Origin: Cellulomonadaceae bacterium
Lineage (GTDB): Bacteria; Actinomycetota; Actinomycetes; Actinomycetales; Cellulomonadaceae
DNA length: 18,599 bases
Reading direction: 5' to 3'
Assembly (NCBI GenBank): GCA_031283115.1
Contig: JAITCK010000133.1
Span: 1-18,599, forward strand
This document shows, in pieces, positions 1 to 13,984 of the stretch. The notes beneath the pieces were generated by a model. The model saw nothing but the letters and a program-made list of their open reading frames with translations. It did no database searches and was not told where the DNA came from. A program made the position numbers and the translations under genes. Each line of letters opens with the position of its first letter. Within the stretch, counting starts at the first letter, position 1.

Positions 1-300
1 GAGGGCAGGCAGTGGCTGTGGGAGGTTGACGGCAAGCCGGTCTGCTGGGCGGGACACAGCAACCCGTCGTCCGGCGTCGCCGGTATCGCTAACGTCTTCA
101 CCCCGCGCGACCATCGCGGCCACGGATACGCCAGCGCCCTGGTCGCCCACCTCACCCAAACTTTGCATGACCAGGGCCTTCGCGTCATCCTCTACACGGA
201 CTTGGCTAACCCAGTCTCCAACGGCGTCTACCAGCGCATCGGCTACCAACCCATCGCCGACACTGCTGAAGTCCGCTTGACACCACCACCCCAAAACTGA
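1..300 (+). CDS. GNAT-family N-acetyltransferase, 3' end only
   Basis: Reading frame 1 is open from the first base to a TGA at 298-300 and gives the last 99 residues of a GNAT acetyltransferase; the start lies outside the window. The acetyl-CoA binding loop (motif A) is visible as VFTPRDHRGHGYASALV, with the R/Q-x-x-G-x-G/A pattern in RDHRGHGYA. It is followed by the motif B strand and helix LYTDLANPVSNGVYQRIGYQPIAD, the usual ending of this superfamily. Family members transfer an acetyl group from acetyl-CoA to an amine on a small molecule, peptide or protein. The substrate cannot be told from this fragment. The 151 bp to the next gene show no strong U-tailed terminator. Confidence 0.85.
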   Translation, partial: EGRQWLWEVDGKPVCWAGHSNPSSGVAGIANVFTPRDHRGHGYASALVAHLTQTLHDQGLRVILYTDLANPVSNGVYQRIGYQPIADTAEVRLTPPPQN

Positions 301-3689: not shown

Positions 3690-4232
3690 ATGCCGAGGGC
3701 GACGAATAAAGAGGACTTGTTGACTGCTGCTGCGGGGCGGTGGGATGCCCTGTGGGGGTTGCTTGATGCGATTCCCGGCGGTGCAGAGGCGGTGGCCTTT
3801 GATTTCAGTGGGAATCCAAAACTGAAAGAGGCGCACTGGTTGCGCGATAAGAATGTGAGGGACGTTTTCGCGCACTTGTATGAATGGCAGCGGCTTCTTA
3901 TCGACTGGGTGGCTGCGAATAGGGGAGATGGCTCGGTCACGCCGTTTTTGCCTCAGCCGTACACCTGGAAAACCTACGGCGACATGAACGTCAAGTTCTG
4001 GCGGAAGCATCACAGCACCACGTATGCGGAGGCAGAATCCCTGTTGCGCGGCAGCCACGCCCAGGTGTTGGCCCTCATCGACTCTTTCAGCGATGAAGAC
4101 CTCTTCGAGAAAAAGCATTTTCCCTGGACGGGCACCAGCAACGTCGCCAGTTATTGCATTTCTGTCGCACCCAGTCACTATGACTGGGCAATCAAGAAAG
4201 TCAAGCAGTATCTCAATCAGACCCATCAGTAG
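3690..4232 (+). CDS. ClbS/DfsB family protein (DUF1706)
   Basis: A 180-aa four-helix-bundle protein of the ClbS/DfsB family (formerly DUF1706). Hallmarks are KEAHWLRDKNVRDVFAHLYEWQRLLIDWV (about 46-74), PFLPQPYTWKTYGDMNVKFWRKH (85-107), LLRGSHAQVLALIDSFSDEDLF (118-139) and FPWTGTSNVASYCISVAPSHYDWAIKK (144-170). In Escherichia coli, ClbS protects the producer against the genotoxin colibactin by hydrolysing its cyclopropane warhead. Most family members are uncharacterised and may protect against other DNA-damaging metabolites or act as DinB-like enzymes, so function here is inferred from family. A good SD (GGAGG at 3676-3680) supports the ATG. The gene is less GC-rich than its neighbours, suggesting transfer. 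Its last 20 bp overlap the convergent TetR gene. Confidence 0.88.
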   Translation: MPRATNKEDLLTAAAGRWDALWGLLDAIPGGAEAVAFDFSGNPKLKEAHWLRDKNVRDVFAHLYEWQRLLIDWVAANRGDGSVTPFLPQPYTWKTYGDMNVKFWRKHHSTTYAEAESLLRGSHAQVLALIDSFSDEDLFEKKHFPWTGTSNVASYCISVAPSHYDWAIKKVKQYLNQTHQ

Positions 4233-5070: not shown

Positions 5071-5076
5071 GTTTCT

Positions 5077-5104
5077 ATCGTAGTGCATACCGAACGGTTT
5101 GCAA
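5077..5104 (-). promoter_or_regulatory. Promoter of the TetR gene (leaderless, shared -35)
   Basis: On the minus strand: -35 TTGCAA (5104-5099), 16-bp spacer, -10 TACGAT (5082-5077), then 6 nt to ATG at 5070. The whole spacer lies inside the operator palindrome, so repressor binding would block it (autoregulation). Confidence 0.65.
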
Positions 5105-5117
5105 ACCGTTCGGTATG
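5086..5117. promoter_or_regulatory. 32-bp perfect palindrome, probable TetR operator (O1/O2)
   Basis: Bases 5086-5117 are a perfect inverted repeat with no loop, beginning CATACCGAACGG and ending with its complement. Each arm contains its own near-palindromic box: ACCGAACGGT at 5089-5098 and ACCGTTCGGT at 5105-5114, centres 16 bp apart. This fits two TetR dimers binding side by side. The centre is TTGCAA, the -35 hexamer of both divergent promoters. Confidence 0.85.
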
Positions 5118-5126
5118 TGTTAGCGT
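5099..5126 (+). promoter_or_regulatory. Promoter of the ABC exporter operon (shared -35)
   Basis: -35 TTGCAA (5099-5104), 16-bp spacer and -10 TAGCGT (5121-5126). The start would fall near 5133, giving a leader of about 56 nt with SD AGGAG (5175-5179) 9 nt before ATG 5189. Operator boxes cover the -35, the spacer and the region just past +1. Confidence 0.6.
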
Positions 5127-5136
5127 TCAGCCCCAT

Positions 5137-5146
5137 ACCGATCGGT
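5137..5146. promoter_or_regulatory. Third TetR operator box ACCGATCGGT (O3)
   Basis: A perfect 10-bp palindrome (12 bp with flanking T/A, 5136-5147) matching the two boxes in the large palindrome (ACCGWWCGGT). Its centre is exactly 32 bp from the second box and 48 bp from the first. It lies just downstream of the predicted ABC transcription start. Confidence 0.65.
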
Positions 5147-5188
5147 ACGTCTGCGCCGCATCCGTCATCACGACAGGAGTTCCACCCC

Positions 5189-6042: not shown

Positions 6043-6867
6043 ATGACCACCTCGACTCTTACACCATCGGCCACCGCACCGTTGACCACCGCACCGTTGA
6101 CGACCGCCGCATCGTCCCCGCTGGCCCGCATCGGCACGGCGACCCGGCAACTTGGCCTGGTCTTGCAATGGAACGTGAACCGGATGCGCAGTTGGCTGCC
6201 GTTGACCATCGTCGTGCAAGTGATGATGACCGTGCTCACCGTGCTCGGCTACGGGATGCTCATCGGCACCCCCACACCGCAGGCCGCCGTGTTCCTCGCC
6301 ACCGGCGCCGTGACCGTGCAAATGCTGATGATGGGGCTGGTCATGGTCCCGCAGGCGGTGGGCCAGTCCAAAACGGAAGGGTCGCTGGCCTGGATGCGGA
6401 CCTTGCCGGTTCCCCGGCTGGTGTTTTTCCTCGCGGACATGCTGACTTACGCCCTGCTTGCCCTACCGGGAACTGTGCTCGCGCTGGTGGTGGGCGCCTG
6501 GCATTACGGCATCAGCCTGTCGGTCAGTGTGTGGGCGCTGCCGGCGGCCCTGCTCGTCGCCCTCATTTCGACGTCTGTCGGTTATGCGTTGGCCATGCTG
6601 TTGCCGCCGTTGGTCGCTGGGCTGATTAGTCAGGTGCTGGTGTTTGTGGTGCTCATGTTCTCGCCCGTGTCCTTCCCGGCCGCCAACCTGCCCGGCTGGC
6701 TGGCCGTCGTCCACGAGTGGCTGCCCATCGCCTCCATGGCTGACCTGATGCGCGCCACCCTGGCCAGCGACACCTTCACCATGTCCCTGCGGGCCGGTTT
6801 AGTCCTGGCCGCCTGGACAGTCCTCGCCGTCATCGGGGCCATTCGCGTGCTGTCCCGGCGTGTGTGA
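6043..6867 (+). CDS. ABC-2 type permease of the TetR-controlled exporter
   Basis: A 274-aa integral membrane protein with about six hydrophobic segments (approximately 52-75, 81-104, 127-151, 162-184, 188-208 and 250-270), as in ABC-2 half-permeases that dimerise with two ATPase subunits. The cytoplasmic loop KTEGSLAWMRTLPVPRLVFFLADML (110-134) resembles the coupling region of this family. The SD AAGGA (6031-6035) lies 7 nt before ATG. The first 30 residues are Thr/Ala/Pro-rich and arise partly from a 15-bp tandem repeat. The close spacing after the ATPase gene argues for one transcript. It probably exports a hydrophobic drug or metabolite; the substrate cannot be read from sequence. Confidence 0.87.
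   Translation: MTTSTLTPSATAPLTTAPLTTAASSPLARIGTATRQLGLVLQWNVNRMRSWLPLTIVVQVMMTVLTVLGYGMLIGTPTPQAAVFLATGAVTVQMLMMGLVMVPQAVGQSKTEGSLAWMRTLPVPRLVFFLADMLTYALLALPGTVLALVVGAWHYGISLSVSVWALPAALLVALISTSVGYALAMLLPPLVAGLISQVLVFVVLMFSPVSFPAANLPGWLAVVHEWLPIASMADLMRATLASDTFTMSLRAGLVLAAWTVLAVIGAIRVLSRRV
6073..6102 (+). repeat. 15-bp tandem repeat, two copies, in permease N-terminus
   Basis: ACCGCACCGTTGACC is followed directly by ACCGCACCGTTGACG (14/15 identical), encoding a repeated five-residue unit (TAPLT, TAPLT). Being a multiple of three, gain or loss would keep the frame. Confidence 0.7.
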
Positions 6868-7013: not shown

Positions 7014-8063
7014 ATGACAACTAAGACTCTTCAGCGTGGACGTCGAGGGCGCCCGTCTCGGGACGCTGTTTTTGCCCGGTTTGCTGCTGCCATCGGTGAA
7101 CTAGCCAACTATGGCGGTCTCCCCAAGCCCTATGAGGCTAAGAAGTTGTGGGATGACTTGTGGGCGCTTGAAGCTCACCACTCCACCGCTATCGAAGGCA
7201 ACACGCTGGTTTTACGTCAGGTGGAGAAACTGCTGCACGAGGGCCGGGCCGTGGGTTCGAAAGAGATTCGTGAGTACATGGAGGTACTCGGCTACGCAGA
7301 CGCGGCAACATGGGTGTACAAGCAGGCCGTCGCCCCGGATGAGTGGGAGCATGATGGCCTGGTCTCCTTGACCGAAGTGCGGCGGATTCACACGCTGGCG
7401 ATGAAAAAGGTGTGGGAGGTTGCTCCGCATCCTGACGCCTACGACACCGAAGAGCCGGGCTCGTTTCGACACCATGAAATCATGCCGTTCAGCGGCGGTA
7501 TGCAACCCCCAACCTTCCCGCTTGTACCCGCTGAAATCTCGGCCTGGGTGGATGAAGCCAACGCCTTAGGGCAAAGGTTGCGCCATGCGGAGATGCCGGT
7601 CAGCGAGGTTCCTGAGGCGCTCGCCCGCCTCCATCGGAGGTTCGAGTGGATTCACCCCTTCATTGACGGTAATGGCAGGACGGGGCGGCTTGTTCTCAAC
7701 CTGCTGCTAGTGCGGCTTGGCTGGCCGCCTGCGATTATCCTCAAAGAGCAGCGCAAACGTTACCTCTCGTCACTCGACCGGGCCGACAATGGAGACTTCG
7801 GCCCACTGGCGGAGATTATCGCCCGATGCGTGGTCGACTCTTTACATCGCCTGATTCCCAACATAGCGGGGCCAGTCAAGTATGTTCCCCTGGAATCCCT
7901 GGCAGATGGCGAGTTGTCTATTGCAGCGCTTCGGCAGGCCGCCACCCGGGGGCGCCTCGATGCGGTACTTGGCGCCGACGGCCACTACCGCTCGTCACGG
8001 GCCGCAGTGGACGAGTACAAACAGTCCCGACAGCACACTGGTGGCAAGGCGCACATGGCATAA
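7014..8063 (+). CDS. Fic family protein (probable AMPylase, class II)
   Basis: A 349-aa Fic/DOC protein. The catalytic motif HPFIDGNGRTGR (214-225) is complete, with His214 as base, Asp218 for Mg2+ and Arg225 for phosphate. The autoinhibitory motif (S/T)xxxE(G/N) is STAIEGN (57-63), N-terminal to the Fic core, which defines class II and means Glu61 should block ATP binding until relieved. The substrate flap is near FRHHEIMPFSGG (151-162). The C-terminus (about 299-340) looks like a small winged-helix or excisionase-type DNA-binding domain (ALRQAATRGRL...HYRSSRAAVDEYKQSR). Fic enzymes usually transfer AMP to Ser, Thr or Tyr hydroxyls; the target here is unknown. No separate antitoxin gene is evident, as expected for class II. 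The flanks are AT-richer than the neighbours and share a 10-bp direct repeat (6882-6891 and 8126-8135), hinting at acquisition. Confidence 0.93.
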   Translation: MTTKTLQRGRRGRPSRDAVFARFAAAIGELANYGGLPKPYEAKKLWDDLWALEAHHSTAIEGNTLVLRQVEKLLHEGRAVGSKEIREYMEVLGYADAATWVYKQAVAPDEWEHDGLVSLTEVRRIHTLAMKKVWEVAPHPDAYDTEEPGSFRHHEIMPFSGGMQPPTFPLVPAEISAWVDEANALGQRLRHAEMPVSEVPEALARLHRRFEWIHPFIDGNGRTGRLVLNLLLVRLGWPPAIILKEQRKRYLSSLDRADNGDFGPLAEIIARCVVDSLHRLIPNIAGPVKYVPLESLADGELSIAALRQAATRGRLDAVLGADGHYRSSRAAVDEYKQSRQHTGGKAHMA

Positions 8064-11543: not shown

Positions 11544-12293
11544 ATGATGACGACGGCACGGTTCGCAACGCAGTCTCACCCTATTGAGATTCGCGGCCTG
11601 GTCAAACGGTTCGGGTCCACCACGGCCTTGAACGGCCTTGATCTGACGGTGGGGCACGGCGAGGTGGCCGGGTTTTTGGGGCCTAACGGGGCTGGTAAGT
11701 CCACCACCATCCGTGTGCTGCTGGGCTTGCTGCGGCCCGACGGCGGCCAGGCGCGGCTTTTTGGCGGTGACCCTTGGAGGGATGCCGTGACCCTCCACCG
11801 CCGCCTGGCTTACGTGCCCGGTGACGTGTCCCTGTGGCCCAACCTGACCGGTGGGGAGGCCATCGACCTGCTGGCTCGTCTGCGCGGGGGAGTAGACCTG
11901 GCCCGCAAACGCGACCTGTTGGATCGGTTTGACCTGGACCCCAGCAAAAAGGCCCGCACCTACTCCAAGGGCAACCGGCAGAAGGTGGCCCTGGTCGCGG
12001 CCTTCGCCTCCGACGTGGATCTCTTCATTCTGGACGAGCCAACATCGGGCCTGGACCCCCTCATGGAGGCCGTCTTCACCGACTACCTGCGCGACCTCAA
12101 AGCCCAAGGGGCGTCAGTCCTGCTCAGTTCCCACATCCTCAGCGAAGTGGAGAAGGTCTGCGACACCGTGACCATCATCCGCAAGGGCGTCGCCGTCGAA
12201 CACGGCACCCTGGACGAGGTGCACGCCGCCCATCCCGGCGTCGCCACCCTGGAAGAGATTTTCTTGGGCCAGTACGCGGGTGAGCCAGAGTGA
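11544..12293 (+). CDS. ABC transporter ATP-binding protein (polyketide/drug exporter type)
   Basis: A 249-aa ATPase. Walker A is GPNGAGKST (46-54). The signature is YSKGNRQKV (140-148), in which KGNRQ replaces SGGQ; this form is common in actinomycete antibiotic-exporter ATPases. Walker B is FILDEP (161-166) with Glu165, the D-loop is SGLD, and the H-loop His197 is in LLSSHIL. It should power the membrane protein encoded immediately downstream, whose GTG start overlaps this stop by 4 bp (GTGA), giving tight translational coupling and fixed stoichiometry. A second ATG directly follows the first; the leaderless -10 spacing favours 11544. Expression may depend on the length of the C10 tract in the promoter. 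Confidence 0.92.
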
Positions 12294-13984
12294 GCGGGAC
12301 TTCTTCGGCGCGGGTTTCGCTGGCGCCGACATCGTCGTCGGGCGCTTCGCTGACCAGGGCATCCTCGCTGACCGGAACCGCCGCCCTCCTCCGCTTCAAC
12401 CTCCGCCGTGACCGGATCCGCATCGGCGTGTGGACCCTGTCGATCGGCGTCATGTACCTCTACTGCGTGGTCGCCCTGGGCGGCATGTTCGGTACGGCGG
12501 AGGCTCAGCAGCAGCGGGCGGCCCTGATGTCCACTCCGGCGTCGGTGCTTTTGGCCGGGCCGGGTTACGGGCTGGACCACTACACGCTGGGCCCCATCAT
12601 GGCCAACGAGTTGCTGCTCTGGTTCATCGTTGCCGTCGGCATCATGTCCATTCTTCAGGTGGTGCGCCTGACGCGGGCCGAAGAGGAATCGGGCCGGTCA
12701 GAGTTGATTCGCGCGGGCGCGGTGGGCCGCCATGCCCCCTCTGTCGCCGCAGCCCTGACCGTGGTGGTGGCCAATGTCATCATCGCGGTCGTGAGTTGTG
12801 CCGCCCTGGTAGGCGGTGGGTTGGCGGCGGGGGAGTCGCTGGCCTACGTGGCCGCTGTGGCCCTGGGATCGCTGGTCTTTGGTGCTGTCGCCTTGGTGAC
12901 GGCGCAGGTCACCGAGCATGGGCGCGGAGCCTCCGGCATGGCCATTGCCGCCCTCATGGTCGCGGTGGCGGTGCGGGGCGCCGGAGATGTTGAGGGACTG
13001 AGCCGCACCCCGTCGCAGCATGGGTCGCCGCTGAGTTGGTTTTCCCCGATTGGTTGGATGCAGCAGACGCGGCTCTACGTGGACCTGCGGGTTTGGCCTT
13101 TGGCCTTGCCGGTCGCGCTCATTGCCGTGTTGGTGGGAGTCTCAGCCCTACTGGCTGGCCGTCGTGACTTCGGGGCTGGCCTTATCGCCGTCAAACCGGG
13201 CCGGGCCGACGCGGGTCAGTGCCTGCGGTCGCCGCTGGCGGTGACCTGGCGACAGCAGCGGTCCATGACCCTGTGGTGGGCCTTTGGGTTCGCGCTCATG
13301 TTCGCCGCATCGGGCACCTACATCGACTCCATCGGCTCCATGATGCGCGACATGATCGCCCAGAACCCGGCCGTGGGAAACATCTTCAACGCCCACGACA
13401 TCACCGGGTCCTTTGTCGGTGTGCTGCTCCTTTTGGGGGCGGTGACCGCTGCGGCCTACGGCATGTCCGCCCTGGGCCGGGCGCGGGCGGAAGAATCCGC
13501 AGGCCGGGCCGAATACCTGCTGGCCACGCCCATCTCCCGTGCCCGTTGGCTGGCTGCCCAGATGGCAGTGCCCGTCACCGGGGCTGCCGCCCTCATGGTG
13601 CTGGCCGGGGTGACCACCTGGGCCGGGGCAGTGTCCTCCGGTGTGACGGACCCTGGCCTGGGCGACTACCTCCTCGCCTCCCTGACCTGGTTGCCCGCTG
13701 TGGCCGTGGTGCTCGGGTGTGTTGCGGCCCTCTACGGCTGGGCACCCCGCCTCATGCCAGTGGGCTGGGCCTTTGTCGCCTGGGGGGTCTTTGCTGGGAT
13801 TTTCGGCCAGGCCATGAACCTGCCCGGCTGGGCGCTCGGTATGTCGCCCTTCCACTGGGTGCCCAACACCATGATGACCGGGGCACACCATTACTGGCCG
13901 GTGGCCTGGCTGACGGTCATTGCTGTAGCCCTGTTCGTGGCGGCTTTCGTGGGGTTCAGGCGTCGCAATATTCCTGTCGCCTGA
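12290..13984 (+). CDS. ABC exporter permease (polyketide antibiotic exporter-like, two-lobed)
   Basis: A 564-aa membrane protein with roughly twelve hydrophobic segments, the size and shape of actinomycete exporters annotated as polyketide or tetronasin-type ABC permeases. An internal duplication is visible. [19 protein letters not shown] (129-147) corresponds to [21 protein letters not shown] (397-417), and [16 protein letters not shown] (249-264) to [13 protein letters not shown] (517-529). One polypeptide therefore provides both permease halves for an ATPase dimer. The N-terminal 30 residues are Ser/Ala/Thr-rich. The GTG start overlaps the ATPase stop (GTGA). The role is probably efflux of a hydrophobic antibiotic-like compound; the substrate is not determinable. 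Confidence 0.87.

Follow-up and report, generated by a model that had tools for sequence, protein, structure and literature searches.

In a Cellulomonadaceae genome, the start codons of a TetR-family repressor gene and of an ABC transporter ATPase gene are 118 bp apart, and a perfect 32-bp palindrome centred on the self-complementary hexamer TTGCAA lies between them. The question raised by this locus is whether the two promoters share TTGCAA as a single −35 element, as the original prediction proposed, or whether such an element is produced by the symmetry of the palindrome. The whole analyzed stretch of DNA (18,599 nucleotides) is hereinafter referred to as the window. Checking of the sequence confirmed that the palindrome is perfect and that it fails when widened by one base. 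TTGCAA was also found to be separated by 16-bp spacers from both the leftward TACGAT (read from 5082 to 5077) and the rightward TAGCGT, just as predicted. The features of the locus are listed in Table 1.

Table 1. Genes, operator boxes and promoter elements of the TetR/ABC-2 exporter locus in the window
Feature	Position	Strand	Basis
TetR-family repressor, 285 aa	4213..5070	-	Pfam PF00440, 8.3e-17, residues 78-122
Leftward -10, TACGAT, 6 nt 5' of the TetR ATG	5077..5082	-	TANNNT 6-8 nt before the start in 66/67 loci
Perfect 32-bp palindrome (box 1, TTGCAA centre, box 2)	5086..5117	.	Sequence check
Box 1, ATACCGAACGGTTT	5087..5100	.	11/12 to ATACCGNNCGGTAT
Exporter -35, TTGCAA	5099..5104	+	TTG 16-18 bp rightward in 31/49 box-anchored loci
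Box 2, AAACCGTTCGGTAT	5103..5116	.	11/12; mostly within the exporter promoter spacer
Exporter extended -10, TGT-TAGCGT (hexamer 5121-5126)	5118..5126	+	TTG and/or TGN in 48/49 loci
Box 3, ATACCGATCGGTAC	5135..5148	.	11/12; at the predicted exporter start, probably near 5133-5134
Shine-Dalgarno-like AGGAG, 9 nt 5' of the exporter ATG	5175..5179	+	Sequence
ABC transporter ATPase, 261 aa	5189..5974	+	PF00005, 1.8e-21
ABC-2 permease	6043..6867	+	PF01061, 3.1e-13

A gene with a TetR helix-turn-helix (HTH) domain is divergent from a transporter gene in this locus, and palindromic operators, which are kept in relatives, are located at both promoters. Both traits mark a TetR-family autoregulated divergent exporter locus. 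The top NCBIfam model for the ATPase was drrA, with 172.6 bits, which is under its cut-off of 312.45. The end of the repressor gene is overlapped by a convergent neighbour (3690–4232, plus strand) with a strong match to DUF1706 (PF08020, 5.1e-50), and a Fic/DOC-family protein (PF02661) is encoded 3' of the permease gene (7014–8063, plus strand). In addition, a second ABC ATPase and then a large ORF (12290–13984) that may encode its membrane partner were found at 11544–13984 on the plus strand; a motif scan of the window's genome revealed no box of the 14-bp type described below in this region.

The HTH domain of the repressor is most similar to the gamma-butyrolactone-type receptors (ScbR) among the NCBIfam models, and CprB and AvaR1 are among its best PDB sequence matches. 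The protein was not classified as an ScbR-type gamma-butyrolactone receptor, since its match to the model NF041196 covers residues 70–129 only and scores 63.8 bits against a curated cut-off of 150. Modeling using AlphaFold (40 sequences) led to a model with a mean pLDDT of 86.6 and helices at residues 8–29 and 32–89. According to this model, a helical N-terminal extension of about 65–70 residues would run into the first HTH helix, with blocks of residues 11–70 having pLDDT values of 83–96; the 40-sequence alignment and the model indicate that an extension of this length before the HTH is a trait of the whole TetR subfamily. A PDB fold search, which is uninformative about the extension, gave TetR chains of about 170–220 residues among the best 50 of 839 matches. 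When the TetR protein was searched against the genome contigs, a single distant locus was found (56 residues, 40% identity).

Whole-genome searches within the genus and the family supplied the relatives of the locus. With a threshold of E ≤ 1e-12, 70 of the 221 family genomes gave a TetR match. Sixty-seven loci, including the window, were oriented, G005 was added from its other contig, and G046 and G150 were left out. The first tallies (boxes, exporter −10, leftward −10 and TTG background) comprise the window and 66 relatives, and the tallies of TTG spacing, shared hexamer and longest palindrome were made with L035 excluded and G005 included. The automatically assigned exporter start was wrong or missing for L006, L007, L008 and L084; L007 and L008 were still tallied, because the stretch was extended to 170 nt. 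The loci in these tallies are not phylogenetically independent.

It was revealed that the palindrome is formed by a pair of neighbouring 14-bp boxes, ATACCGNNCGGTAT, and that a third copy lies at the predicted start of the exporter transcript. The motif ACCGNNCGGT occurs four times in the window, where 0.70 occurrences are expected, and three of these are located between the two genes (at 5089, 5105 and 5137). In the window's genome, which is 72.9% complete, the 14-bp box with at most one mismatch was found at these three places only, and a control with the reversed pattern gave no occurrences. All 67 loci contain at least two boxes matching at 9/12 or better, with a mean of 3.12 such boxes per locus versus 0.058 in shuffles. 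The 162 boxes of 10/12 or better match ATACCGNNCGGTAT with strong preferences at almost all positions, a fit that is a necessary one, as the boxes were chosen by ATACCGNNCGGTAT. As side observations, the locus L101 (G008 C30) has an orthologous ABC gene (74% identity) and boxes, with no TetR match in the available stretch, and in L006 (G002) box 3 is directly followed by an ABC match that covers residues from 133 onward only, as though the 5' half of the gene were lacking in the genome or in its assembly.

Box 3 was absent from the original prediction, yet no other feature of the region is placed as regularly. In 43 of the 49 loci in which the exporter −10 was located, its first base is followed after 12–16 nt by the start of a box of 8/12 or better (exactly 13 nt in 34 of them and 14 nt in the window); the shuffle expectation for a box at any position of the 43-nt stretch is 10%. 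This spacing puts box 3 at the predicted start site.

A string with this symmetry is far beyond chance expectation, and its length arises because two reverse-complementary copies of a quasi-palindromic box adjoin; when two boxes were picked at random from the relatives, they were exactly reverse-complementary in 0.7% of cases. Among the 67 loci, a perfect palindrome of at least 32 bp was found in the window only, and the longest ones in the other 66 are 4–24 bp. By this comparison, the long symmetry is specific to the window's genome and the conserved unit is the 14-bp box. The claim that the promoters meet inside a 32-bp operator therefore holds as far as a centrally placed TetR-type operator is concerned, but this operator is really two 14-bp boxes, with the third one downstream. 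An alternative is that the palindrome forms one recognition unit for a TetR dimer of dimers, as for CgmR or QacR, for which site lengths of 32 and 28 bp are stated; CprB, to which the HTH domain is similar, also binds as a dimer of dimers (PMC4150764). We consider a single operator unlikely, as the 32-bp symmetry is confined to the window, box 3 has no adjoining partner box there, and the spacing between boxes 1 and 2, measured in the 40 of 49 loci that yielded a box 1, ranges from 12 bp up to the 45-bp limit of the search. A role of the palindrome as an RNA hairpin or another structure, instead of as DNA operators, is extremely improbable. Such a reading is suggested by the perfect inverted repeat, but the boxes are kept in relatives, in which the longest perfect palindromes are shorter, and the palindrome lies upstream of both predicted starts and so would be in neither transcript.

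The proposed roles of TTGCAA as the exporter −35 and of TAGCGT as its −10 were borne out by comparison with relatives. Anchoring by box 2 revealed TANNNT in 49 of the 67 loci, and 48 of these 49 have a TTG −35 and/or a TGN extended −10. A rightward TTG at 16–18 bp is present in 31 of the 49 box-anchored loci versus a background of 1.4%; nearly all loci without it have the TGN extension, and the window and L080 have both. In the other 18 loci, which lie outside the set of 49, no box-anchored exporter −10 was found within the search range. Five of them are genus mates (L003–L006 and L093), in which box 2 is further upstream. Without box anchoring, TTG-16..18-TANNNT was found in 34 of the 67 loci and was absent from 33. 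Counted by eye against the E. coli consensus, TTGCAA and TACGAT match at 4/6 positions each and TAGCGT at 3/6, which is weak; both −10 elements fit TANNNT. A sigma-70 consensus scan gave no promoters, and such a scan is of little use in a high-GC actinobacterium.

The leftward −10 TACGAT also stood the comparison, since TANNNT with leaderless geometry is kept in 66 of the 67 loci. It was searched for 3–12 nt before any in-frame start, and the candidate nearest to 6–7 nt was kept; it precedes the start by 6, 7 and 8 nt in 48, 17 and 1 loci, respectively, and the shuffle expectation at 6–7 nt is about 1% per start. In the one exception, L035, no leftward −10 was found, probably because the aligned start lies beyond it. 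A TANNNT about 6–7 nt before the start, with no room for a Shine-Dalgarno site, is the mark of a leaderless gene, and the TetR mRNA of the window is predicted to be leaderless because there is no space for a ribosome site. In bacteria, leaderless genes are marked by a TANNNT some 12 bp before the start, and such genes are frequent in actinobacteria (PMC3160421). The −10 motif mapped in M. tuberculosis is likewise TANNNT, and a conserved −35 motif was not detected in that species (PMC3898074). The repressor gene, with the first base of TANNNT about 12 bp before its start, is like the leaderless genes described in these sources, and no difference from them was seen. Seven of the 39 aligned TetR relatives (P0007, P0008, P0015, P0019, P0020, P0023 and P0026) have an M-Y-x-x-x-M N-terminus; these proteins are probably annotated too long, the annotated start being an upstream ATG whose next codons span the TANNNT −10.

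An order-level search matched 92 of 396 genomes. Of the 30 loci returned, 12 were analyzed; none entered the tallies, and L138 belongs to a genome already counted. TANNNT is located 6–7 nt before an in-frame start in nine of the 12 loci, one of them with TTG at 18 bp, and three have no leaderless signal. A box of 9/12 was found in seven and was absent from the available stretch in five, and an ABC gene lies within the stretch in four.

The comparison bears directly on the claim that divergent promoters share TTGCAA: the promoters are indeed divergent, but a leftward TTG at 16–18 bp was found in only two of the 67 loci (the window and L061), where about one is expected at the 1.4% background. 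In the 34 loci with rightward TTG-16..18-TANNNT, the exporter TTG hexamer lies 16–18 bp from the leftward −10 in the window only. The distance is 13, 14 and 15 bp in the other compact loci of the genus (G010, G001 and G005, respectively), 19 bp in one locus and 20 bp or more in 29. A core element with usable spacing in both directions is thus not kept in relatives, as its geometry is found in 1/34 loci. TTG is missing altogether from that place in L037 and L044, two loci of another genus that are also compact (37 bp between the −10 elements).

We find it improbable that TTGCAA serves as the −35 of both promoters, with polymerase orientation there setting the direction. The exact 16/16 spacing in the window is in favor of such a switch, and TTGCAA also occupies the centre between the boxes in G001 and G005, but the leftward TTG is at the level of chance, the exporter TTG hexamer is 13–15 bp away from the leftward −10 in the other compact loci and 19 bp or more in the remaining 30 of 34, and most mapped TANNNT promoters of M. 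tuberculosis have no conserved −35 (PMC3898074). TTGCAA is kept in three of the four compact genus loci (G000, G001 and G005, at 16, 14 and 15 bp), the fourth, G010, having TTGCCG, and TTGCAA between two box halves was found in 4/221 family genomes, namely these three and G125. A small chance of a lineage-specific double use is left because of this retention, the 15-bp spacer of G005 being poor but not impossible. It is doubtful, though conceivable, that in the compact lineage (36–38 bp between the −10 elements) the exporter −35 became TTGCAA and that the repressor promoter of the window, and perhaps that of G005, captured it as its own −35, giving a one-hexamer two-way switch in a triple operator. 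The retention may leave room for selection on the CAA half. Taken together, the idea of two promoters sharing a single recognition element has weak support; that TTGCAA is self-complementary and lies equally far from the leftward −10 is most likely a by-product of operator symmetry. A literature search for a shared −35 found no publication, and something may still be in print.

According to the original prediction, the two promoters should exclude each other even without TetR. This is plausible in the window from polymerase overlap alone, since the predicted starts are about 63 bp apart and two polymerases with usual footprints would hardly fit side by side, whatever the −35 does. However, no shared −35 is needed for this, and exclusion is not a conserved principle, because the gap between the two −10 elements ranges from 36 to 149 bp over 48 loci (the 49 without L035), with 31 at 70 bp or less and seven over 100 bp. 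For E. coli bidirectional promoters, acrR/acrA included, basal activity is reported to be too low for marked polymerase competition, which appeared once one side was strengthened (PMC12825309).

All these characteristics allow us to assume, with a probability of roughly 80%, that this is the control region of a self-regulated TetR/ABC-2 exporter locus with three operators, in which the repressor −10 is independent of a −35 and TTGCAA is the exporter −35. The boxes, both −10 elements, the exporter −35 and the leaderless geometry are supported by comparison with relatives, and we infer the binding of TetR, the repression, the release by a ligand and the positions of both starts. A TetR dimer would bind the three ATACCGNNCGGTAT copies and, once bound, block both promoters. 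Box 1 lies close to the leftward −10 on its upstream side, box 2 falls between the two elements of the exporter promoter, and box 3 is located at the start of the exporter transcript. A ligand, probably an exported substrate, would release the repressor. The exporter mRNA would be transcribed from TTGCAA-16-TAGCGT, with TGT before the −10, starting near 5133–5134 and carrying the Shine-Dalgarno site. Transcription of the repressor gene would begin at its ATG, driven by a TANNNT promoter that has no need of a −35.

From its sequence features, the locus most likely represents an ordinary type of bacterial control region, that of a standard autoregulated TetR/exporter pair. In Tn10, the repressor gene tetR and the exporter gene tetA are divergent, and more than one operator overlaps both promoters. 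The present locus is similar in its divergent repressor and exporter genes with several operators, and it differs in the operators, the transporter class and the promoter spacing. The acrR/acrA region of E. coli also contains a TetR-family autorepressor gene divergent from an efflux operon, and polymerases can compete there for overlapping promoters; the element shared there belongs to the −10 (PMC12825309), whereas the promoters of the present locus have separate −10 elements and, as proposed, would share the −35. Inverted repeats with A/T-rich CC...GG-type half-sites are described for the operators of the gamma-butyrolactone-type receptors CprB and AvaR1 (PMC4150764, PMC5744401), which the boxes resemble; the present locus differs from those systems in its box, ATACCGNNCGGTAT, and in having an exporter next to the regulator. 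A literature search for this exporter family found no publication, which does not prove absence from print.

The operator motif and the promoter map given here can be tested, and they apply to a TetR/ABC-2 exporter family that was found in 70 of the 221 genomes in the window's family. The locus also illustrates how a genuine promoter element can be told apart, by comparing relatives, from one that palindrome symmetry produces. If a shared −35 were proven, it would provide a compact natural case of polymerases competing in two directions.
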